Translations under genes and position numbers: made by a program
Virus record (IMG/VR): IMGVR_UViG_3300019766_000020
Span: 1 to 24,595 of that record
Strand: one strand, 5' to 3'
Origin: a virus
Length of the DNA: 24,595 nt
Shown: positions 1,786 through 24,564 of the stretch, in pieces
Layout of the letters: each line of letters opens with the position of its first letter
Numbering within the stretch: the stretch's first letter is position 1
Notes under the pieces: model-generated
Database searches by the model: none
The model's input: the letters and a program-made list of their open reading frames with translations, nothing else
What the model was told of the DNA's origin: nothing

Positions 1786-3106
1786 TTGTTGTCCCCTTGT
1801 TTTTAAGTCCGTACTTTGTTAGAAGTTCCTGCTCTTTTTGTTTTGTTGCAAGCACCTCTTCAAAGTCAAGCCCACGCTCGTGAGCCAAGTCTGTCATAGT
1901 TGTAAGATTTAACTCGATCTCTTTTTCGATCGCCTTCATGTCTTGTTGCGGGTTTACCCACTCACGTTTTGGGTATGACCATCTAGGTGCTATAAATTGT
2001 TCTTTGTCTTGAAGCCACTTGTTTGTCGGTATATCAAGTTTTCCTCGCATCATCTCAACTTCGATCCATGTTCTAAACACATCTGCAAGCACATAGTTTG
2101 CAAGATGCTCTTGCTCATAGTCAAATCTTTTGTTGTCTTGAATGAGAGATGCGCGTGAAGATGCGAAATTAACTTGAGAGTAGTCTCTAAATGCAAGTTC
2201 GTACGATATGTTTCTCGCAGTAGCGATCAATCTGACTGTAGAGGTGATAAAGTCTGAGTAGCCATTACCCATGTCATTTTTATGTTTTGTAGCTTTTTCA
2301 CCAGGGCGAAGGTAATAAACCATAAGACCGTTTATTTCTTGTATCTCTTCCCCTACTTCTGTTTGTGTATGCCCAAATGTACCACTATCTCTTTCAGACT
2401 CGATCGTGTATGCAATCTCAGCGTTTGCGCGTGCATTTTTGACAGTTGCACTTTGAAAGGCAGAGAAGTTTTTAATGTCTAGTACAGCTTGTTTATACTC
2501 GCTAATTCCACGGAACTGAGTAGCACGTTCAATTCTGCAGTAGTTTATGATGTGTTCAGCTGGGATATCTATGCTTTTGTTGTCTACTTTGAAGTGGTAT
2601 GTTTTTATGGAACCACTATCATCCAAAGTGATCCCGTTTGTACCTTTGAAACTATCGAGTGCATCTGCTTCTATAAGTTGAAGTTTGAGCCCGTCTTTTG
2701 TAATCTTTTTGTAAATAAATATCTCGCCATCAACCATACGTGTTTCAAGTATTACGCGTTGTAGGTCTGCAAAACTTAGTCTGCCTGTAATGTCACATCT
2801 ATTTGACCAAGATTTAAAACGCTTCTCAATAATATCATCTACTTTTTTATCACCTGTTTTCGACTGTAATCCGATCCCTTTTCCTACTACATTATTAAGG
2901 ATAGCTTTGTCGATGTTGGCCATAATAGGATTGTTTTCATGCAGCCAGCGTGCGCGTGCTCTTAGTGTGTCACGGTCTGCAGTTGCAGTCTCTTCAAAAG
3001 GGTTGTTTGCATTCCAAAAGTCACGGTTTGCAAGGGTGCGTTTTCCACCCTCATAAAATGCACGTTTTTGTGTTTTTCGTCTAAAAAGCTTACCCAAAAG
3101 AGACAT
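1778..3106 (-). CDS. phage portal protein, lambda gpB family
   Basis: Forms the dodecameric vertex ring through which DNA is packaged. The sequence has the look of lambda-type portals: N-terminal RAFYEGGKR.. and a conserved RARWLHENNPIMANIDK stretch, followed by VVGKGIGLQSKTGDKKVD, typical of the family. I place the start at the ATG at 3106 (MSLLGKLFRRK), preceded by AAAAAGGC. The longer frame begins with TTG at 3160 and would overlap gpW by 71 bp; with the ATG at 3106 the overlap is 17 bp. This gives 442 aa, a little shorter than the lambda portal. It lies between gpW and the protease-capsid fusion, the order found in lambda. Confidence 0.88.
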   Translation of the reverse strand: MSLLGKLFRRKTQKRAFYEGGKRTLANRDFWNANNPFEETATADRDTLRARARWLHENNPIMANIDKAILNNVVGKGIGLQSKTGDKKVDDIIEKRFKSWSNRCDITGRLSFADLQRVILETRMVDGEIFIYKKITKDGLKLQLIEADALDSFKGTNGITLDDSGSIKTYHFKVDNKSIDIPAEHIINYCRIERATQFRGISEYKQAVLDIKNFSAFQSATVKNARANAEIAYTIESERDSGTFGHTQTEVGEEIQEINGLMVYYLRPGEKATKHKNDMGNGYSDFITSTVRLIATARNISYELAFRDYSQVNFASSRASLIQDNKRFDYEQEHLANYVLADVFRTWIEVEMMRGKLDIPTNKWLQDKEQFIAPRWSYPKREWVNPQQDMKAIEKEIELNLTTMTDLAHERGLDFEEVLATKQKEQELLTKYGLKNKGTTNA

Positions 3107-3320
3107 TTGCAAAAGCCTTTTTAAGTGTAGTGGTTTGTCCCTCAACATAATTAGATCCAAACTGATCTATTTTTGCAAGGATGCGGTCTCTCTCTTCGTA
3201 TAGTCTGAACAGTGCTGCACGATTTACTTGTTTATCTCCATTTTGATAGCTTTGAGCTTTTTCCGCTTTGTCTATCTTTGTGTTGATATCTTCAAGTCTT
3301 TGTCCAAGAGTGAGAGTCAC
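3090..3320 (-). CDS. gpW-like head-tail joining protein
   Basis: A 76-aa protein of the size of lambda gpW (68 aa), which plugs the portal after packaging and makes the site for gpFII. The predicted helices at about 5-22 (QRLEDINTKIDKAEKAQ) and 34-53 fit the gpW fold, and the gene sits directly between terminase and portal as in lambda. The start is GTG at 3320 with AAAAAGG seven bases upstream. This ribosome binding site lies inside the right arm of a 9-bp inverted repeat (3321-3329 with 3345-3353), so its translation may be damped by a hairpin. Assignment rests on size, context and sequence character. Confidence 0.72.
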   Translation of the reverse strand: MTLTLGQRLEDINTKIDKAEKAQSYQNGDKQVNRAALFRLYEERDRILAKIDQFGSNYVEGQTTTLKKAFANVSFG

Positions 3321-3418
3321 AAATACACCTTTTTAATTTTTATGGGTGTATTTTGACTGTATTTTTTTTTGATCGGTATGGGTACTAAAAAGTTTTTAAA
3401 ATATTTTTCATACCGATC
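3321..3418 (-). promoter_or_regulatory. intercistronic inverted repeats before gpW
   Basis: Two inverted repeats fill the gap between the 72-aa gene and gpW. AAATACACC (3321-3329) with GGTGTATTT (3345-3353) would form a hairpin in the minus-strand RNA that covers the gpW ribosome binding site. GATCGGTATG (3371-3380) with CATACCGATC (3409-3418) gives a 10-bp stem that includes the stop codon of the upstream gene. In the minus-strand transcript this second stem is followed by a run of A, not U, so it is not a standard terminator. Confidence 0.5.
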
Positions 3419-3626
3419 CCTTAAACTCCTCAACATCCTTCTCAAACCACTCAGATCCTTTAGAGAGAGTATCAAGAGCTTTATTGAAGCCTTCAGACTC
3501 TAAAAGTAGTTTTTCAAGAGCTTTTCCAAAAGATATTCCCTCTTTTTCTGCAAACTCATAAACACCTCTAAGTGCTGCATAGTCAACCGTTGAACGCGGT
3601 AAGTAAGATCTCTTTTGTAATGCCAT
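3408..3626 (-). CDS. small unknown protein between terL and gpW
   Basis: A 72-aa acidic, mostly helical protein that I do not recognise. It begins MALQKRSYLPRSTVDY and ends in a helix-rich segment (KALEKLLLESEGFNKAL). A strong ribosome binding site, GAGGAG, lies eight bases before the ATG and overlaps the end of the terminase gene, whose stop is only two bases upstream of this start. Tight coupling inside the packaging and head operon suggests a role with terminase or head completion, but that is inference from position only. Confidence 0.7.
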   Translation of the reverse strand: MALQKRSYLPRSTVDYAALRGVYEFAEKEGISFGKALEKLLLESEGFNKALDTLSKGSEWFEKDVEEFKGSV

Positions 3627-6389: not shown

Positions 6390-7088
6390 CTACTTAGCTG
6401 TACTTATTGCATACTTCAATGCTTTATAAAACTCTTTTTCAATGTTCTTTTCAACTACCTTTGTGACAGTCTTATAGAACTCTAAAGTTGGTTTCTCTTT
6501 AACACTCTTAGCAATTATGAAGAGTGGGATTGCATCTCTATTTAAAACCTTTCTAGCTTTAAGTAAACGGCCACTCTTGCCTCTTCTTTGTCGAGTTCCA
6601 TCAACTTTACCTTTCTTTCTTTGGAATATTGCCATCGTTCCATACTTACTACCCTCGCTTCGTTTGTTCCATCCGGTTGTTAGAGGAGCTTCAAAAATTC
6701 TGTTCTTTGCTTTATTGTTGAGTAGTTGCTGTGCTTTTTTCTTGATAGCTCTATTTGTCTTAAGGTTAGGGAATAACTCTTTAAACCCATTAGTTGGTAT
6801 CAACTGGTTAGCTCTCATACCACCATCTTCGTGGTCATCCAACCAATCATGAGGAATATAGATTTCAACTTCTAGATTTTCTTTTGTTGCTGACTCTTTC
6901 TTAATCCCTACCCCAACTTTATTCCAATTTTTATCAGTTATATCAAATGCACTTTTATTTTGCTTTACCTGTGCTTTCATAGCTTTTTCTGCGACTCTAT
7001 TAAGTGTTAACTGTGAAGCAAAATTTACTTGTTTCTCTAAGTCACTTAGGCCTCTTATCACCTCATTAATATTAGTTTCTATACTCAT
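6390..7088 (-). CDS. phage tail-completion-like protein
   Basis: 232 aa, basic. The arrangement (N-terminal helix EVIRGLSDLEKQV, a TLNRVAEKAMKAQVKQ helix, a beta segment EVEIYIPHDWLDDHEDGGMR, then basic RQRRGKSGRLLK and a C-terminal helix) resembles minor tail protein Z or HK97 gp10-type tail completion proteins. I put this no higher than likely. Its start shares one base with the integrase stop (TGATG), so the two are translationally coupled. A tail gene placed before terS rather than after the capsid genes is unusual for a lambda-like order. Confidence 0.55.
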   Translation of the reverse strand: MSIETNINEVIRGLSDLEKQVNFASQLTLNRVAEKAMKAQVKQNKSAFDITDKNWNKVGVGIKKESATKENLEVEIYIPHDWLDDHEDGGMRANQLIPTNGFKELFPNLKTNRAIKKKAQQLLNNKAKNRIFEAPLTTGWNKRSEGSKYGTMAIFQRKKGKVDGTRQRRGKSGRLLKARKVLNRDAIPLFIIAKSVKEKPTLEFYKTVTKVVEKNIEKEFYKALKYAISTAK

Positions 7089-8176
7089 CAGCCAACCCTC
7101 TTATACAAGTTCTCAACAAAACTACGCCCACTTCCTGGACTAAGCTTTGCATATTTCTCTGTCTGTTTTATATCTTTGTGGTTCATTAGTTTTTGTATCT
7201 CTTGGATTGATACACCTGCTATTGCTAAGTGACTTGCAAAAGTGTGTCTTAGTGTGTGAATCACTACTTTGTTTGCTCTGTCATCTTTAGATAAACCATC
7301 ATTAAATTCTTTAAATATCTCTGTCAGCTGGTCATATAGAACATGGTACTTAGTCTCTTTGCCAAAAAGAGAAACAACATAGTCATTTGCTCTAAAACTT
7401 TCAAGGTGTTCTTGCAGCATATTAAACGTATTATCATCTAAGTAGCCAATGTAAAAGTTATTGCGTTTATAGTCTTTTAGAGTTACTGATCTTGTTTCCA
7501 AGTTTATATGTTTTCTTGGAAGCTTGAGTAAACTCTTTACCCTTGCACCTGTACAAAGTGCCATGCTTATAAATAGTTTTAAGACCTTATCATTATCCAC
7601 AAGCTCACGCAGTCTTTCGATCTCAACATTGCTTAGATATCTGAGTCTTGTGTTATTGACTTTGAGCATCTTTATATTTCTAAACGGACTCTCTCTTATT
7701 ATCGCTCTCTTGACTCCAAAACCAACTATCCTCTTAATAAGCTTGACTATCTGGTTGTTTGTAGATGCTGCCATACCATCAGCTTTTTTAAGTGCTTGCA
7801 GTTCCGAGATCAGTGAATCATCTAACTTTGCTATGGTCACGTCACCAAGACTTGGTTTGATATGTTTTTTATACATAAGCATGTTACTGTGGTTGCTTTT
7901 ATTATGAGCTTCATTGCTAGTGAAGTACAGTTCTGCCAACTTATCTAATGTCAAACGCTTATAGTTTTGCTGAGACAGATCTAGTCCGTGTCTTAGTTCA
8001 CTTATCTTTTGGTTTCTGAGTTCAATACATTTGGCCTCAGTAATGCCCTCAGACTTTTTACCAACCTTCAGCCATACAGTTTCTTTTCCGATTTTGTAAG
8101 TTACAAAATATGATATATCACCGCTCTTTAAGTGGTTAAGCTGAACTCTAGAACCATATCTTTTGCTTGACTGCAT
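7088..8176 (-). CDS. tyrosine recombinase (phage integrase)
   Basis: 362 aa, complete. N-terminal about 1-70 is an arm-binding-type domain (YFVTYKIGKETVWLKVGK); a SAM-like core-binding domain covers about 73-165; the catalytic domain follows. Catalytic residues seen: Arg212 in CTGARVKSLL, a beta-hairpin Lys near 233, His307/Arg310 in HTLRHTF, His333 in LMNHKD and the nucleophile Tyr342 in TEKYAKL. The ATG directly follows the stop of the replication gene (TAGATG). An intact integrase within a replication-to-packaging operon is odd: phage integrases normally sit next to an att site at the end of the prophage. It may integrate this phage, resolve dimers, or be a leftover of recombination. Confidence 0.92.
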   Translation of the reverse strand: MQSSKRYGSRVQLNHLKSGDISYFVTYKIGKETVWLKVGKKSEGITEAKCIELRNQKISELRHGLDLSQQNYKRLTLDKLAELYFTSNEAHNKSNHSNMLMYKKHIKPSLGDVTIAKLDDSLISELQALKKADGMAASTNNQIVKLIKRIVGFGVKRAIIRESPFRNIKMLKVNNTRLRYLSNVEIERLRELVDNDKVLKLFISMALCTGARVKSLLKLPRKHINLETRSVTLKDYKRNNFYIGYLDDNTFNMLQEHLESFRANDYVVSLFGKETKYHVLYDQLTEIFKEFNDGLSKDDRANKVVIHTLRHTFASHLAIAGVSIQEIQKLMNHKDIKQTEKYAKLSPGSGRSFVENLYKRVG

Positions 8177-13124: not shown

Positions 13125-13676
13125 ATGTCAACAACAAATGTATTAAACGATGTAGAATACGACGAGTCCGTAGCAAGGTTTGCTAAGAAGCGTATGAATA
13201 TGGAGTTTAATAATAAAGGCGTATCACATGCTGTAACAGTTGTAAAGAACCTGTTAGATACAGCAGAGAACTCTGTAAAAATGTTTTCTGAACAATTAAA
13301 TAGCACTGTTGCTGATAACCATCTTTTTTTAGAGTCACTAAAAAAATACATCGAATCTGGGAAAACATTTGAATTGTTATTAGAAAAAATACCAGATAAA
13401 CAAAACAGATCAAAAGCTTTAAATATGGTGCTTGAATATTCATCAAAAAGTGACAACAATGTAAAGCATAAGATTATATCGGCTGATTCATTAAGAGATA
13501 TGGGTGCTCATTTTTCAAATAAAGACAAAATTGCATACCATTTTATTGTGGTTGACAATAGAGCTTTTAGAGTTGAAACAGACCCTCAAGAGTTTAAAGC
13601 TACTTGTAACTTTAACGATCCAGATGTGGCAGGAGCATTCTCTAAGCTATTTGATAAATATTTTAAAGAAGCTTAA
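13125..13676 (+). CDS. soluble protein of a two-gene operon, possibly PLD-like fold
   Basis: 183 aa. N-terminal helices (VARFAKKRMNMEFNNKGVS), then a segment VTVVKNLLDTAENSVKMFSE with TFELLLEKIPD, and a C-terminal part YHFIVVDNRAFRVETDPQE then CNFNDPDVAGAFSKLFDKYF. This order (tethered helix, short strand, HF..VDNRAFR, FNDP..A..F...F) reminds me of phospholipase-D-like domains that lack the HKD catalytic motif. That is a low-confidence recollection of a pattern, not a search result. A very strong ribosome binding site and the overlap TAATG with the next gene show a translationally coupled pair. It probably senses something and signals to the membrane partner (inference). Confidence 0.6.
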   Translation: MSTTNVLNDVEYDESVARFAKKRMNMEFNNKGVSHAVTVVKNLLDTAENSVKMFSEQLNSTVADNHLFLESLKKYIESGKTFELLLEKIPDKQNRSKALNMVLEYSSKSDNNVKHKIISADSLRDMGAHFSNKDKIAYHFIVVDNRAFRVETDPQEFKATCNFNDPDVAGAFSKLFDKYFKEA

Positions 13677-14590
13677 TGGCTTCACCAGTTTTACCTGAAT
13701 TACCTTCGATTATAAACTACAATGTAAGTAATCAAAATGAAAATGTCAATCAGGTTTCAGATATTTTATCATCGATAAACTTGGTGTCAGTGGATCACAT
13801 CCCGTATATACCGCTTATCGATCCATATACCTCATTTTTTGAAGTATCTATAGCTTTAAATGTAACTTATGCAGCTTCTGAACACTTTAGAAATATTTTC
13901 AGTAACGCACTTCAAAATAGTTCCAAAACAATGAGTGAGTCCTTTGAAAAAAGTATAGAAGAAACTTTTGACAAAATCAATATTATGAGCGATGACGATG
14001 TAGATAAGCAGCAAAAAGACAAACTAGGTAATAAACTATTAGATATTTTAACTAGCTTTGATGATCAAAGCACTAAGCTCAATAATGAAATCTGTGATGC
14101 TAACGATAGAATAGCTGACCAAATAAAACCAATCTATTTATTCGTAGCTATTATAAACTTGTTTGTTCTTTTCTTAGCCGGCCAAGAATCTATTCATCAA
14201 CATTTTCCAGGAAACGAATTGGTTTTATTGAGTATAACTTCAATTATAACTATCCTTTTTATATGGGCACTTACGTATACAAGTAAAAAACCTTCTGTGG
14301 TATTAGTCTCTTCTTTTGCTATAATGGTTATCCTATCCTCTTTTTTTGAGTTAATTCCTTTATATGATATTTTAGAGCTAGAAAAAGACAACAATAAATA
14401 TATTGTTGACCTTATGCTTTTAACTGCATTTTCCCCTTTTATGATAGCATTCACAAGATTATTTTTTCAAAATTTATGGCTAAGCATAAAGTATAAGTTT
14501 GTATCTGTATTTTATAAACTAGAGTTTTATAGAATTAAGCTTGGTACGAAAAAAGTAGAAGAAGCTAAAAACTATTTAAATGATTTGTAG
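13676..14590 (+). CDS. four-helix membrane protein of the same operon
   Basis: 304 aa. Residues 1-150 are cytoplasmic, acidic and coiled-coil-prone, with an Asn/Gln-rich NVSNQNENVNQV near 16-27. Four likely membrane helices follow at about 153-169, 182-199, 206-224 and 242-264, then a basic amphipathic tail (YKLEFYRIKLGTKKVEE). No signal peptide. The start shares bases with the stop of the upstream gene. The design of soluble sensor plus multi-helix membrane partner is that of several abortive-infection or exclusion modules, but no known family is recognised. Confidence 0.65.
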   Translation: MASPVLPELPSIINYNVSNQNENVNQVSDILSSINLVSVDHIPYIPLIDPYTSFFEVSIALNVTYAASEHFRNIFSNALQNSSKTMSESFEKSIEETFDKINIMSDDDVDKQQKDKLGNKLLDILTSFDDQSTKLNNEICDANDRIADQIKPIYLFVAIINLFVLFLAGQESIHQHFPGNELVLLSITSIITILFIWALTYTSKKPSVVLVSSFAIMVILSSFFELIPLYDILELEKDNNKYIVDLMLLTAFSPFMIAFTRLFFQNLWLSIKYKFVSVFYKLEFYRIKLGTKKVEEAKNYLNDL

Positions 14591-14628: not shown

Positions 14629-15258
14629 CTAACCAGCTTCGTCCCTCCCATATCCGCTCCAAAAAATGTCATGAAGGTATTTTGCATCTTGATATCTAAG
14701 TAGTATTAGCTTTACGCTATAAACTTTATTTGTTCTAGGGTCAATGCCAAAATATTCAATTCTCCCTTTATTCATCCACCCTTTTTTTAACTCTACAGCC
14801 CATATATCTTCGTAAAATTTATTTTTCACACCTTTATATTCAAATGCACGATCTTTATATTTTACATGCCCCCAGCTAAATTTTTTAAACATCCAGTTCA
14901 AAGAAAAAGCAGATATAAAAGCAGAGCTCACAGACAACACAACAACAAGAAGAGCAAAGAAGAAGGTTTTGTATATATCGATACCTAAAGAATGTACTAT
15001 AAAGATAGAAAGCTTTACGGATGCGAACATAGCTAGAAAAGACAAAATATAGTAGTACTTTTCAAAATCTCTTATAGGGCTAAGTTCTACATTTCTAGGG
15101 TTTGCATGTAAAAATGCAAAATAATTATTAATATTTTGGTTATTACCCTGATTAAGACTTGCAAAGCTTCCAAGGTTACCCGCACTTTTAGTACTTTCGA
15201 TTTTTTCTGCAAGAGATCTCACAGTAAGAACAAGTTCTTTTATTACTTCTTGAGACAT
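14629..15258 (-). CDS. two-helix membrane protein with C-terminal soluble domain
   Basis: 209 aa. An N-terminal helix (KELVLTVRSLAEKIEST) is followed at about 27-46 by a short motif NLGSFASLNQGNNQNINN. Two membrane helices lie at about 69-90 and 96-122. Residues 123-205 form a soluble beta-rich domain (HVKYKDRAFEYKGVK, then DIWAVELKKGW) that could be PH-like. GGAGTG precedes the ATG. It lies downstream of the XRE and nuclease genes on the same strand. The motif recurs in the XRE protein, suggesting the two contact each other; function is otherwise unknown. Confidence 0.6.
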   Translation of the reverse strand: MSQEVIKELVLTVRSLAEKIESTKSAGNLGSFASLNQGNNQNINNYFAFLHANPRNVELSPIRDFEKYYYILSFLAMFASVKLSIFIVHSLGIDIYKTFFFALLVVVLSVSSAFISAFSLNWMFKKFSWGHVKYKDRAFEYKGVKNKFYEDIWAVELKKGWMNKGRIEYFGIDPRTNKVYSVKLILLRYQDAKYLHDIFWSGYGRDEAG

Positions 15259-15341
15259 TATGTCACTCCATCATAGTTTAAGTTTGTACTATTTTAAACA
15301 ATAATGGTGAAAATATTAATTAACTATTTCATTTTGCAATA

Positions 15342-15782
15342 TCACTTACACCAATCTTTACTTTTCGTACCACCGTCATAAGAAACTGCAAAACCTCTTT
15401 TGATCAACTCCTCACCTAAAGAGTCCCCATCTATATAAACATCAGCAACGATTCTAAAATACTTTCCGCGCTGCACATTTTTTAAAACGATTTTTTTTGC
15501 TCCATGCAACATTGATGCTGTGAGCTGCTTTGCTTTACGTGCAAGTTCTTTTTCTTGTTGGCACTTAGCCCTCATTTCTGGAGTATCAATTCCGTTGACC
15601 CGTATCGGAACGCGATACCCTATGATCCTAGGATAACCTTCAATGTTTACACGAAACGTGTCTCCATCATATATGCTTGTTACTTCACTAACCTCTATAG
15701 AATCAAACTTTATATCTTTGAGTGATTCGGCATGAAGACTTATGACAAATGAGATTAGCAATAGTGTAAGTAAATTTTTCAT
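15342..15782 (-). CDS. exported thermonuclease (SNase family)
   Basis: 146 aa. A signal peptide (MKNLLTLLLISFVISLHA) sends it out of the cytoplasm. The staphylococcal nuclease core is intact: DGDT with Asp41, IRVNGIDTPE with Arg61, Asp66, Thr67 and Glu69, and Arg110 in the strand before VADVYIDGDSL. These match the calcium-binding and catalytic Asp21, Arg35, Asp40, Glu43 and Arg87 of the family type. It should cut DNA or RNA in the periplasm or outside. Its start overlaps the XRE gene by ATGA, with AAAAGGATC as ribosome binding site. A DNA-degrading periplasmic enzyme on a prophage could block incoming DNA (inference). Confidence 0.85.
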   Translation of the reverse strand: MKNLLTLLLISFVISLHAESLKDIKFDSIEVSEVTSIYDGDTFRVNIEGYPRIIGYRVPIRVNGIDTPEMRAKCQQEKELARKAKQLTASMLHGAKKIVLKNVQRGKYFRIVADVYIDGDSLGEELIKRGFAVSYDGGTKSKDWCK

Positions 15783-16195
15783 TGAATATCTGTAGATCCT
15801 TTTTGAATTACATAAACTAAGATATCTGCTTTAGCTTTCTCGTTTGCCATTCTAAAAAACTTAAGAATCATTTTTTCATCATCACTAAGAGCCTCTTGGT
15901 TGTTGCTATTGATATTTTGATCATGCCCTTGATTAGCAATAGCACCTGGCCCCATATTGCCAATAGATTTATTATATTTAGGTGGTTTGTCACCAAATTG
16001 AATATACATAATTTCTTGTTCATCAAATGCAAGTGCTAATTTCAACTTCAAATTAGTTGTAAAGTTTTTTGAACCATTTCCACTTTCATACCTACTAATT
16101 TGAGATAATTGTACACCTATTATCTTTGCCAACTCTGTCTGACTAAGATTGTGTTTATCCCTTATTTCCTTTAATCTCTCATACCAACTAGACAT
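15779..16195 (-). CDS. XRE-family transcriptional regulator
   Basis: 138 aa. Residues about 5-60 are a Cro/CI-type helix-turn-helix (LSQTELAKIIGVQLSQISRYESG). The middle holds SIGNMGPGAIANQGHDQNIN (about 77-96), a motif shared with the membrane protein at 14629. The end (LSDDEKMILKFFRMANEKAK) is a short helical segment typical of phage repressors. It diverges from the small HTH protein at 16306 across a strong promoter, like a CI/Cro pair, and heads an operon with the thermonuclease. Confidence 0.85.
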   Translation of the reverse strand: MSSWYERLKEIRDKHNLSQTELAKIIGVQLSQISRYESGNGSKNFTTNLKLKLALAFDEQEIMYIQFGDKPPKYNKSIGNMGPGAIANQGHDQNINSNNQEALSDDEKMILKFFRMANEKAKADILVYVIQKGSTDIQ

Positions 16196-16209
16196 TTATT
16201 TACTTTTCC

Positions 16210-16239
16210 TTGACTTTTATATTGACATTTGTATATAAT
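16210..16239 (+). promoter_or_regulatory. promoter of the 16306 gene
   Basis: TTGACT (16210-16215), 18-bp spacer, TATAAT (16234-16239), with a TTGACA in the spacer. It lies between the XRE repressor and the Cro-like gene, so it is the likely target of both. Repeated AACATTTATG/ATTATAACA stretches (16245-16285) may be operator sites. Confidence 0.65.
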
Positions 16240-16305
16240 TCTCTTAACATTTATGTTTTTATAACAATAACATTATAACAAATATGCAAAAAAGGTTTTC
16301 GATAA

Positions 16306-16587
16306 ATGAAATTAAATGACAATTTTAATGACAATGTTTCTTTATTTAAGAACATACAGGCAAGACTTATAGTAAATCAAAAAGACTTAGAAGATGTAGC
16401 CAGAGAGCTTAACACAACTGCATCTACGGTAAGAACAATAATTGGAAACAAGTTTCAAAGAGGAGGTAAAAGTACACCACTTGACAAAAAAGTATTTGAC
16501 TACTTCACGTCAAATTTCAAAGGCTTCAAGCAATACTGCATTAAAAACAATATAAGTACTATAGACTCAATAGAGCCTTATTTGTAA
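16306..16587 (+). CDS. Cro-like small HTH protein
   Basis: 93 aa. NQKDLEDVARELNTTASTVRTIIGNKFQ (about 25-52) contains a helix-turn-helix of the LacI/Cro type; the rest is helical and acidic (KKVFDYFTSNFKGFKQYC). It diverges from the XRE gene and is the first plus-strand gene after the strong promoter, the place of Cro. The start has no good ribosome binding site except AAAAAGGTTTTCG. The 3' end overlaps a long hairpin at 16561-16604. Confidence 0.6.
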   Translation: MKLNDNFNDNVSLFKNIQARLIVNQKDLEDVARELNTTASTVRTIIGNKFQRGGKSTPLDKKVFDYFTSNFKGFKQYCIKNNISTIDSIEPYL

Positions 16588-21230: not shown

Positions 21231-21630
21231 ATGTCACCAACTAGACCACCTCTTAGGTACCACGGTGGAAAATGGCGTGTAGCACCTAAGATAATAGAAC
21301 ACTTCCCACCTCACATGACTTACGTTGAACCTTACGGCGGTGGTGCAAGTGTACTGCTTCGTAAAAAAGAAGTAAGAATGAAATCTACAACGACCTAGAC
21401 GGTGACAAGGTGGTATGAAGTACTACAGACACGAAATGACTTATGAAGATCATGTGCAGCTGCTAGAAAGAGTTAAACAAGCTAAAGCACAAGTAATAAT
21501 TAGCGGATATCCATCGGACCTATACAATGAGATGTTAAGCGACTGGGAATTTTTAACTTTTAAAGCACGAGCATCTTCAAAGCAAGGTACCGTGATTCGA
21601 GATGAATGTTTATTTTACAGGCTCGGATAA
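21231..21630 (+). pseudogene. D12-class DNA adenine methylase (Dam-like), degraded
   Basis: N-terminal LRYHGGKWRVAPKIIEHFPP and YVEPYGGGASVLLRK match the SAM-binding start of Dam-type methylases. A -1 shift at GTAAGAATG breaks NEIYNDLDGD, which reads on in another frame. Directly after, the text jumps to YYRHEMTYEDHVQLLERVKQ and AQVIISGYPSDLYNEMLSDW, the C-terminal third of the family. The middle, with the DPPY motif, is missing. It ends DECLFYRLG. A second copy of the end (LFYRLTNQQINLFS) lies beyond the IS element at 23011-23055. Confidence 0.82.
21608..21624 (+). repeat. 17-bp direct repeat flanking the IS (left copy)
   Basis: GTTTATTTTACAGGCTC, repeated at 23009-23025. It encodes LFYRL of the methylase on both sides. 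Longer than the 8-9 bp target duplication usual for IS256 elements, and separated from the left IS end by 34 bp. Confidence 0.65.
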
Positions 21631-21658: not shown

Positions 21659-23010
21659 ACTGTGTAAATCCAAAAATTGTAATTTATCAGATAGGCTTGA
21701 AAGTTGCTATCTGGTAGATTTATTTGAAGGATTTACAAATGGCAATTTTAAATAAAGAAGAATTACGCAAACAGATCAAAGAAGGTAAAGAGATCTCACT
21801 AGATGGAATTCTAGATGAGTTTAAATCTCTTCTACGAGAATCAACCCAAACAGCCAGTGAGGTTGAGATGGATGAGCATTTAGGTTATGAAAAACACCAA
21901 GAGTCAGATAATCCAAACTATCGTAAGGGTACAAATAAAAAAACATTAAAGTCAAAGTATGGCGAAATTGATGTAGCGATACCTCGTGATAGAGATGGTA
22001 GCTTCGAACCACAACTTGTAAAAAAGCGAGAAAGACTTCTTAATGGTAGTGAAGATCTAATTTTATCACTTTATACCAAAGGTATGAGTGTAAGAGATAT
22101 ACAACATCATTTAGATGATCTCTACGGCTATCAGCTTTCAGAACAAACTATTTCAAATATCACTAGTGCAATCATCGAAAAAGCCAAAGAGTGGTACCCC
22201 AAGGGCACTTCCTTTGGGCGCAAACCGTCCACTTGAGCCTATATATCCTATTATCTTTATGGATGCTACTGTACTGAAAATAAGAGTTGATAGAGTTGTT
22301 AAAAATATAGCAGCATATATCATGCTTGGAATTACTCTTGAAGGCAAAAAAGAGATACTTGGCATATGGATAGGTGAAAATGAAACTTCCAAGTATTGGC
22401 TCACACTTCTCAATGAATTAAAGAACCGTGGCGTGGATGATGTGCTTATCTTTGCAATAGATGGTCTAAACGGTTTCAATCAAGCAATAGAAGCCGTATA
22501 TCCAAAAGCTGAGATACAACGTTGCATTGTGCATCAGATTAGAAGCTCTTTACGTTATGTCTCATGGAAAGACAGAAAAGCGGTTGCAGCCGATCTTAAA
22601 ACAGTTTATACAGCCGCTACTGAAGAGGACGCTCAGGCAGCTCTTTTAGAGTTTAGCGATATTTGGGGTAAAAAATATCCCCATATCACTCAATCCTGGA
22701 CAAATCACTGGAATGAGCTTGCTACTTTTTTCAAATATCCAAAACCTGTTCAGACTCTTATCTATACGACGAATCCTATCGAATCACTCAATTCCAGTAT
22801 AAAAAGACGCACAAAGGCAAAAGGCTCATTTCCAACTATCGACTCTGCTTTTAAAGTGCTATATATATCTACTCAGGAGGTTCAGGAAAAATGGAGCCGT
22901 AACGGAATTCGAAATTGGAGTGAGATTTACCCTCAACTTTGTATATTTTTCAGCGAAATTATGGAAAAATATACAAGGTAATTAAATAGGCTAGAGGTGA
23001 TTTACACAGT
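21659..23010 (+). mobile_element. IS256-family insertion sequence
   Basis: Inverted ends ACTGTGTAAATCC (21659-21671) and, read inward from 23010, ACTGTGTAAATCA enclose about 1352 bp with one transposase gene. The transposase is of the IS256/Mutator kind (see its entry). Exact borders are uncertain, because no clean 8-9 bp target duplication is seen at these ends. Confidence 0.8.
21739..22981 (+). pseudogene. IS256-family transposase with palindromic insertion
   Basis: Starts at the ATG at 21739 (MAILNKEELRKQIKEGKEIS). N-terminal half intact: ASEVEMDEHLGYEKHQ, RKGTNKKTLKSKYGEIDVAI, RDIQHHLDDLYG. After AKEW (ends near 22193) a stretch containing CCCAAGGG-CACTT-CCTTTGGG (22198-22218) intervenes, about 25 bases more than expected before NRPLEPIYP, and changes the frame. 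The C-terminal frame is intact to 22981. DDE residues are seen in FMDAT, AIDGLNG and NPIESLNSS. The protein would be inactive unless the frame is restored. Confidence 0.82.
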
Positions 23011-23043: not shown

Positions 23044-24261
23044 CTATTTTCCTAAAACCCCACCCCACCACTCAAGAAGCTCACGTCTCTCATCTAAAAA
23101 GTCACTTCTTAGATAAGCTTGTTTCACTTTACTCCCTACAGTGTGAGCCAGTTGAGTTTCTATAACCTCACTACTAAACCCATGTTCTTTTTGTTTTTCG
23201 TGGCATATAGTGCTGAATGAGCTACGAAAACCATGTGGTGTATGGTTTAGTATTCCCATACGCTTTAGAGCATATCCAAGTGTGTTTTCACTCAACATTC
23301 TACTCTTTGATGTAGTTGAGCAAAACACATGCTTCTCTTTGCCTGTAACAGCTCTCATGTCTTCTAGTATAGCTTCCATCTCTTTAGTGACAGGAAGCCT
23401 AAACTCCTCTTTTGTTTTCATATCTTCTTTTGGGTAGATTATAAGCTTTTTGTTTAGATTTACCTGCTCCCATCTTAACCCTCTTATGTTTATGGTCCTA
23501 AGACCTGTAAGCGTTATAAATAGTAATGCATTTTTAGTTGAGAGGTCGCCCATGTATTCTTTAAACATCTTGTAAATAGTTCTAAGTTCATCTATATCAG
23601 TTATGGCCTTGAAGTGTTCCGCATCTGACTTTATGACAAGTGAGTTTCTGTCTAGTGTCTGCATAACTGCATTCGTTGTAAGATCATTATGAAGAGCCCA
23701 CTTAAAAACCTGATTTAGTAAGTTAAAAACTTTTCTGCTAGTCTCACTTTTGTTTGAGTTCTTGGTAGATGGTGTAGACACGCTTGGGATGTTCTTTATG
23801 AGAGCTATCATATCGGCTTTGGTAATGCTGTCTATATCTATGTTACCTATGACTGGGTAAGCGTAGTATTCTAAACGGCTGCATTGTTGGTTGTAGTAGT
23901 CAAGACTAAGTTCATGAGACTTAAACTCTAAGAACTGCTTTGCAACATCTTTAAAAGAGTGAGCTGTTACTTTTTGAACTTTTACCTCTTTTTTCTTCTT
24001 TGAAGGATTTATACCGTTTTCAATATCTTCTTTTAGATCTTCAAGCTTTTTTCTTGCAGCACTCAAAGACACTACAGGGTACTTACCAAAACTCACAGAA
24101 CTCTCTTTGCCATCAAACCTGTACTTGGCTCTCCATAGTTTGCTACCATTTGACTTTACAAGTAAAAAAAGTCCGTTTCCATCAAACAGCTTGTAGTCTT
24201 TTTCTTCTATCTTTGCTTTTTTTATCTGGTTTTCACTAAGCGGTCTTACTGTCCTTGCCAT
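23044..24261 (-). CDS. int: P4-type tyrosine integrase
   Basis: Starts at the ATG at 24261 (MARTVRPLSENQIKKAK), preceded by AAGGAAAGCTT; a longer upstream frame is not supported. 405 aa, family size. The N-terminal arm-binding domain (DUF4102 type: KLFDGNGLFLLVKSNGSKLW and KYRFDGKESSVSFGKYP) is followed by the core-binding domain and a catalytic domain with Arg in TGLRTINIRGL, HGFRSSFS (His, Arg), LAHTVGSK (His) and Tyr in VKQAYLRS. All are present. It lies next to tRNA-Ser, reads away from it and is separated from it by repeats, the standard layout of tRNA-integrated elements. Confidence 0.92.
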   Translation of the reverse strand: MARTVRPLSENQIKKAKIEEKDYKLFDGNGLFLLVKSNGSKLWRAKYRFDGKESSVSFGKYPVVSLSAARKKLEDLKEDIENGINPSKKKKEVKVQKVTAHSFKDVAKQFLEFKSHELSLDYYNQQCSRLEYYAYPVIGNIDIDSITKADMIALIKNIPSVSTPSTKNSNKSETSRKVFNLLNQVFKWALHNDLTTNAVMQTLDRNSLVIKSDAEHFKAITDIDELRTIYKMFKEYMGDLSTKNALLFITLTGLRTINIRGLRWEQVNLNKKLIIYPKEDMKTKEEFRLPVTKEMEAILEDMRAVTGKEKHVFCSTTSKSRMLSENTLGYALKRMGILNHTPHGFRSSFSTICHEKQKEHGFSSEVIETQLAHTVGSKVKQAYLRSDFLDERRELLEWWGGVLGK

Positions 24262-24278
24262 AAGCTTTCCTTGTAATC

Positions 24279-24332
24279 GTACCCCTAAAAATAAGAGTAT
24301 AAAAAAAGTACCCCTAAAAAATGCCCCTAAAA
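24279..24332. repeat. three arm-type-like repeats
   Basis: GTACCCCTAAAAA at 24279-24291 and 24308-24320, and the shorter TGCCCCTAAAA at 24322-24332. They lie between the integrase start and the tRNA, so they may be arm-type binding sites of the integrase or an operator on its promoter. Confidence 0.5.
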
Positions 24333-24346
24333 GTTTTGGCTTCAAA

Positions 24347-24473: not shown

Positions 24474-24564
24474 TGGTGGACAGAGAGGGATTCGAACCCT
24501 CGGAACAGTTACCCATTCGCATCCTTAGCAGGGATGTGGTTTCAGCCAGCTCACCCATCTATCC
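24474..24564 (-). tRNA. tRNA-Ser(GCU)
   Basis: Read on the minus strand from 24564: acceptor GGATAGA pairs with TCTGTCC near 24478-24484 (one T-G wobble), anticodon loop CTGCTAA (anticodon GCT) closed by CATCC/GGATG, a long variable arm, and a T stem-loop GAGGG-TTCGAAT-CCCTC. CCA is encoded (24474-24476). The base before CCA (discriminator) is A, whereas tRNA-Ser usually has G; integration may have replaced the end. This gene is probably the att target. Confidence 0.9.

Follow-up and report, generated by a model that had tools for sequence, protein, structure and literature searches.

The usual account of prophage induction invokes either SOS cleavage of the repressor or soluble antirepressors. 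Capture of a repressor at the membrane is exemplified by Mlc, which is held there by the glucose transporter IICB-Glc/PtsG. A different use of matched protein segments is known from amyloid signalling, in which motif pairs occur in adjacent genes (PMC9815663, PMC12261475) and the PP core has been given as NxGxQxGxN (PMC9815663). In the HET-S/NWD2 and PP systems of fungi, the BASS1-10 (Bell/NLR) pairs of bacteria and the RHIM systems of animals, a short motif rich in Gln, Asn and Gly is carried by the products of adjacent genes, one of which acts on the membrane; several motif classes exist, each matched within its pair.

The locus described here encodes a prophage repressor and a two-transmembrane (two-TM) protein, hereafter MEM, which share a short motif rich in the same residues. 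As in the amyloid pairs, the products of adjacent genes carry the same short motif at six loci, although in the sequence that we started from a nuclease (SNase) gene intervenes, and here too there are several motif classes that match within each pair. The partners are of another kind, however; the amyloid pairs include an NLR (NACHT/NB-ARC) protein, whereas the protein in that position here is a phage HTH repressor and not an NLR, and HeLo/Bell proteins carry the motif at the C-terminus, whereas the two-TM protein carries it at the N-terminus. MEM does not belong to the Bell/HeLo-type membrane effectors, having no Pfam match and consisting of two TM helices and a beta-rich domain. The amyloid pairs are found in multicellular bacteria, whereas the hosts here are Campylobacterota. 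No Pfam match to RHIM or another amyloid motif was obtained at E<=10, and the amyloid-like nature of the motif is one of resemblance only, in a Q/N/G core like that of the PP, RHIM and BASS-type motifs.

The other systems also correspond in part. As Mlc is by PtsG, a soluble repressor would here be titrated off DNA by a membrane protein, but Mlc binds a folded transporter domain, whereas here a short matching motif is present in both proteins and the genes lie in a phage immunity operon. Repressors of the LexA/lambda-CI type, with an S24 domain, occupy the same position in the immunity region and have the same HTH domains. Phage antirepressors (the Ant family of Salmonella prophages, phage small proteins) likewise provide a second phage protein through which the repressor would be modulated independently of RecA cleavage; those described are soluble as far as we know, whereas the candidate here is membrane-bound and shares a motif with the repressor.

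The window, by which we mean the whole 24,595-nt stretch that was analysed (IMGVR_UViG_3300019766_000020), is a temperate phage of Campylobacterota type, with genes for terminase GpA, a lambda-type portal, DnaB and two integrases, and a tRNA-Ser at its right end. Its prophage immunity repressor (XRE/Cro-CI type, 138 aa; 15779..16195, minus strand) was recognised by an HTH_3 domain (Pfam, E=1.6e-10) and by its position opposite a Cro-like gene; the Pfam search found no S24/LexA domain in it. HTH_3 occupies residues 5-61 and is followed by a motif-bearing linker and a short helical tail. The protein is homologous to a regulator of the Sulfurimonas phage SNW-1 (37%, tblastn 1e-12). The Cro-like small early gene, a conserved anchor of the immunity region, lies divergently at 16306..16587 on the plus strand. 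Between the two genes, a control region (16196..16305), assigned from consensus matches only, contains TTATAACAA repeats and a promoter-like TTGACT-18-TATAAT at 16210-16239 (+), likewise a consensus match only.

Elsewhere in the window, the two tyrosine integrases (7088-8176 and 23044-24345, both minus strand) are different from one another; the second is beside the tRNA-Ser (24474-24564, minus strand), a likely attachment site, so that two elements or a host flank may be present in the record. A Mutator-family (IS256-like) transposase at 21724-22981 (+) is divided between two reading frames that overlap, apparently through a frameshift, and a D12-class adenine methyltransferase at 21231-21630 (+) is seemingly broken, its first short frame matching the start of the family and its second matching nothing.

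According to the original prediction, the XRE protein and the membrane protein of this phage carry nearly the same motif, and both copies were indeed found in frame where they had been placed. The repressor copy, KSIGNMGPGAIANQGHDQNINS, comprises residues 76-97 (15905..15970, minus strand; core NQGHDQNIN at 15908-15934), and the MEM copy, KSAGNLGSFASLNQGNNQNINN, residues 24-45 (15124..15189, minus strand; core NQGNNQNIN at 15127-15153). They align over 22 residues without gaps, 13 of them identical, with a Smith-Waterman score of 66, which ranks best among the 406 protein pairs of the window. This score was reached in none of 5,000 full and none of 5,000 local shuffles; a second, composition-preserving set also gave 0/10,000, placing p at the 1e-4 floor.

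A repeated stretch in two neighbouring genes could also be an element of DNA, for instance an operator inside both genes that is bound by the repressor; phage operators can be intragenic, and both copies lie within the immunity operon. The two window copies are, however, identical at only 39 of 66 nucleotides, the motifs of the non-window pairs at about 56-79%, and many of the differences are synonymous while the amino acids are kept. Identical residues use the same codon at 5 of 13 positions in the window, against 5.5 expected from codon usage, and none of the six loci departs far from chance in codon sharing, the L022 repressor and its first MEM coming highest (5/7 vs 2.9 expected). Codon agreement at chance level indicates a match preserved as protein sequence, not one left by a recent DNA duplication. 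The codon analysis therefore disfavours a DNA-level repeat, whether operator or recent gene conversion, and we regard a DNA element as highly improbable.

MEM is a 209-aa protein encoded at 14629..15258 on the minus strand and identified by homology to proteins of SNW-1 (BLASTP 2e-15) and of the related loci L022 and L023; Pfam, PHROG, NCBIfam and PADLOC provided no family name for it. From the N-terminus it consists of the motif, two TM helices and a C-terminal beta-rich domain. The helices were predicted at residues 70-88 and 100-118 (14905..15051, minus strand) from Kyte-Doolittle peaks and charge counts, with an 11-residue loop between them (4-14 residues across MEMs); AF2 places them, at low confidence, at 65-91 and 95-126. 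The C-terminal domain of the MEMs is basic; in the window protein, for example, positive residues number 7 in the N-terminal part, 1 in the loop and 18 in the C-terminal domain, a charge bias by which the motif and the C-terminal domain would both be cytoplasmic. The latter (14632..14880, minus strand) is predicted by AF2 to be a beta-sandwich with a C-terminal helix, possibly PH-like; the model was built from four-sequence alignments and has a mean pLDDT of 56, and PH/PTB domains recurred among its Foldseek matches, none at E<0.1. In the AF2 models the motif itself is disordered or of low confidence.

Two features near the pair fell away on comparison. A looser version of the motif had been proposed in the protein at 13676, which proved similar to neither motif (p 0.18 and 0.62) and was rejected as a member of the system. 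An exported nuclease gene had also been noted between repressor and MEM; it is indeed present in the window, as an SNase-type nuclease with a signal peptide (15342..15782, minus strand; Pfam SNase 5.4e-13) whose start overlaps the repressor stop (ATGA), but its position is incidental, since the pair is adjacent at the other five loci. In SNW-1 the SNase gene is elsewhere on the other strand, and at the other loci it does not lie between the genes; the SNase is cargo outside the motif system. Convergent with MEM, at 13125-14590 (+), is a two-gene unit that is possibly a defence or exclusion pair, the first gene encoding 183 aa with weak likeness to DUF7931/DrmC (E about 1e-3) and the second 304 aa with about four TM helices.

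The original prediction also stood or fell with co-occurrence of the gene pair elsewhere, and this was borne out: repressor and MEM with a matched motif were found at six loci in all, namely the window, SNW-1, L022, L023, L071 and L078. The motif-bearing two-TM protein begins 7-13 nt 3' of the repressor at five of them, the window having the SNase between. In SNW-1 the two-TM homologue, annotated only as hypothetical, follows the regulator by about 10 nt, and the motifs of the pair, SIVGNNNNQAGRDQ and RIDGNNNNQAGRDIN, differ from that of the window. L022 and L023 were located by searching viral contigs with the MEMs of the window and SNW-1. Their repressors have a CI-type HTH, unlike that of the window, and the motifs GNHNNQAGGNI (L022) and GNSNNQAGRNV (L023); next to the repressor, L022 has two tandem MEM copies with the motifs NNQVGGNL and NNQAGRDI, and L023 has a MEM directly after the repressor with the motif NNQAGRDL. 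The L071 repressor is composed of a CI-type HTH, SQSITGNSNNQINGSNNTV and S24, and that of L078 of a CI-type HTH, SQSMVGNGNNQVNGSNNSI and S24; each is followed after about 10 nt by a two-TM MEM, of 168 aa beginning MNNQNIEGSNNIQIIGNGNTINV in L071 and of 166 aa beginning MQNIDGNDNVQVFGDGNTITV in L078. The MEMs of classes A and B form one family. Those of class C have the same layout, and in an hhalign comparison with the A/B family (probability 2.8%, E 0.016) their C-terminal ends align, homology not being established by it. Further two-TM proteins with His/Gln-rich N-termini and without the motif are encoded near the pair at L022:7119-7619 (-) and L078:2853-3314 (+).

In order to sample loci independently of the motif, the Cro-like gene (16306-16587), which is conserved in the window, SNW-1, L022 and L023, was used as an anchor and yielded six more loci: L071, L072, L073, L078, L079 and L080. 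Homologues of it adjoin the repressor in SNW-1, L022, L023, L071-L073 and G220/G500/G427, the weakest match being that of G427/L080 (E 4e-5), and at all ten loci an HTH regulator diverges from a Cro-like early gene, the arrangement of a phage immunity repressor of the Xre/CI type. The repressors of L072, L079 and L080 combine an HTH with S24, and that of L073 is a window-like HTH fused to S24; none of the four has the motif, L072, L073 and L079 have no MEM, and in L080 the next gene encodes a one-TM protein without the motif. In this last locus, the one-TM protein and an ImmA-like metallopeptidase (L080:3454-3882 and 2888-3451, minus strand) follow the S24 repressor and share no motif. Motif and MEM were thus both present at six loci and both absent at four (Fisher one-sided p=0.0048), the ten being related phages and not fully independent. 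S24 is present in L071-L073 and L078-L080 and lacking from the repressors of the window, SNW-1, L022 and L023, that is, from four of the six that bear the motif.

Three motif classes can be distinguished, NNQAGRD, NQGxxQNIN and Q[VI]xGxxN[ST][IV], which are in register in both partners; at each of the six loci, repressor and MEM always belong to the same class, and the motif is retained while the DNA-binding domain of the repressor is swapped between HTH_3 and CI-type. Co-variation was assessed by aligning every repressor linker with every MEM N-terminus over 720 pairings; the matched pairing had a summed score in the top 4 of the 720, on an evidence base of six pairs that are partly related. 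The score of 66 between the window repressor and its own MEM compares with a maximum of 28 for this repressor against the remaining MEMs and a maximum of 43 for the window MEM against the remaining repressors. SNW-1, L022 and L023 scored highly among one another, as did L071 and L078 (44-51). It is this change in step in both proteins across viruses that suggests recognition between repressor and MEM.

The same data bear on a simpler account, in which repressor and MEM do not interact and the stretch is a generic linker, oligomerising or of low complexity, that arose separately in the two proteins or was spread by recombination between their genes. The motif is short and rich in N, Q and G, and the loci are few, as such an account would have it. 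Against it stand the co-variation within pairs, the co-occurrence, the composition-matched shuffle tests and the finding that repressors without a MEM are also without the motif; spread by recent gene conversion is further opposed by codon sharing at chance. We consider a generic linker improbable.

Nor is the motif generally common, which would have counted against the original prediction; neither 2.9 million viral contigs nor 50,697 phage records yielded an HTH or TM protein with the motif beyond those described. Exact DNA scans of the viral contigs for NQGxxQNIN and NNQAGRDI returned out-of-frame or unrelated matches, save for the second MEM of L022; an XRE-based search of the viral contigs found none, and sensitive searches of the phage records gave no further motif-bearing HTH or TM protein. 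When applied to every ORF of 60 aa or longer at the ten loci, the motif regexes match these repressors and MEMs only. The A-class pattern produced no new pair in 399 genomes of the order Campylobacterales, where its matches were out of frame or fell in metabolic genes and in adhesin-like proteins rich in repeats. The A3 profile, run on Campylobacterota genomes in partly overlapping sets (phylum, order, two families), recovered only the G001 prophage, identical to L023, and a 5'-truncated remnant in G523; a G694 match was pilin-like and false, and weak A8 matches in G577/G587 were spurious, lying antisense to an unrelated toxin-antitoxin-like pair. The G523 remnant (L063; G523:C35:18863-19366), a MEM without 5' end or motif at a contig edge with unrelated chromosomal genes nearby, is a decayed prophage trace. 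In L044 (NVXJ01000007.1), from a MAG labelled Arcobacter sp. NORP14, a MEM is 100% identical to that of the L023 phage, suggesting that this phage occurs as a prophage and has its hosts among Campylobacterota.

We reasoned that repressor and MEM are paired by the shared stretch, acting as a homotypic recognition motif, and that MEM is most likely a membrane-anchored modulator of the repressor; we give this reading about an even chance. The coupling had been put forward in the original prediction, which is supported in part, in that the pair recurs and the motif is rare and co-varies, with the 13676 protein and the nuclease left out of it. On this reading, repressor and MEM would be in direct contact, and MEM would control the repressor rather than the reverse. 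MEM would span the inner membrane, both the N-terminal motif and the C-terminal beta domain facing the cytoplasm, and the repressor motif, in the linker just past the DNA-binding domain, would bind the MEM motif as like binds like. Under some membrane or infection state, the MEM motif may capture the repressor off operators beside the Cro-like gene, and lysogeny would thereby be tuned from the membrane. That the motif assembles as a cross-beta (amyloid-type) structure is a tentative proposal, to which we assign somewhat less than an even chance. A more elaborate version, which would amount to a new mode of lysogeny control, we find doubtful: repressor and MEM would polymerise through a lineage-specific cross-beta motif, switching lysis-lysogeny or exclusion from the membrane, with the motif as a private lock-and-key against cross-talk between co-resident prophages.

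We favour MEM as a modulator because S24, from which other repressors at this position derive their induction input, is lacking in four of the six motif-bearing repressors, and because both genes lie in the immunity operon. Because the SOS-cleavable domain is missing from the repressors of the window and its closest relatives, MEM may supply a possible alternative input in these phages. The class C repressors, of L071 and L078, keep S24 in addition to the motif, which implies that MEM does not just take the place of SOS cleavage; the motif is N-terminal to S24 in this class, so that an SOS-cleaved fragment would retain it. Mitomycin C treatment preceded the recovery of SNW-1 (PMC11290706), whose repressor lacks S24, so damage-linked induction would have taken another route, or induction was spontaneous; neither 'repressor' nor 'HTH' turned up in a term search of that paper (PMC11290706).

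The direction of control might also be reversed, with MEM as a membrane effector, acting in superinfection exclusion or membrane damage at infection or induction, and the repressor sensing on its behalf or restraining it; MEM would be freed or nucleated through the motif once the repressor was lost or clustered, as in the amyloid pairs of NLR and membrane effector. In fungi and bacteria, motif pairs from adjacent genes do link receptors with effectors that act on membranes (PMC9815663). MEM lies in the repressor operon, so that the lysogen probably expresses it, which is common for exclusion genes, and the tandem copies in L022 would also fit. On the other hand, MEM falls into no PADLOC or exclusion family, it is unlike any known pore former, and its motif is N-terminal, against C-terminal in the HeLo/Bell effectors. 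This reversed direction is a serious rival to MEM as modulator of the repressor, albeit an unlikely one in our judgement.

The literature searched contained no paper joining amyloid signalling, prophage and repressor, nor did we come across an account of a link of this kind between dormancy and the cell membrane. If our preferred reading is true, these phages gain a membrane input to the induction decision through a co-evolving motif in repressor and membrane protein, and signalling by motif pairs from adjacent genes, so far a matter of NLR and cell-death proteins, would extend to a phage transcription factor. The paired motif classes make the specificity directly testable by swapping.
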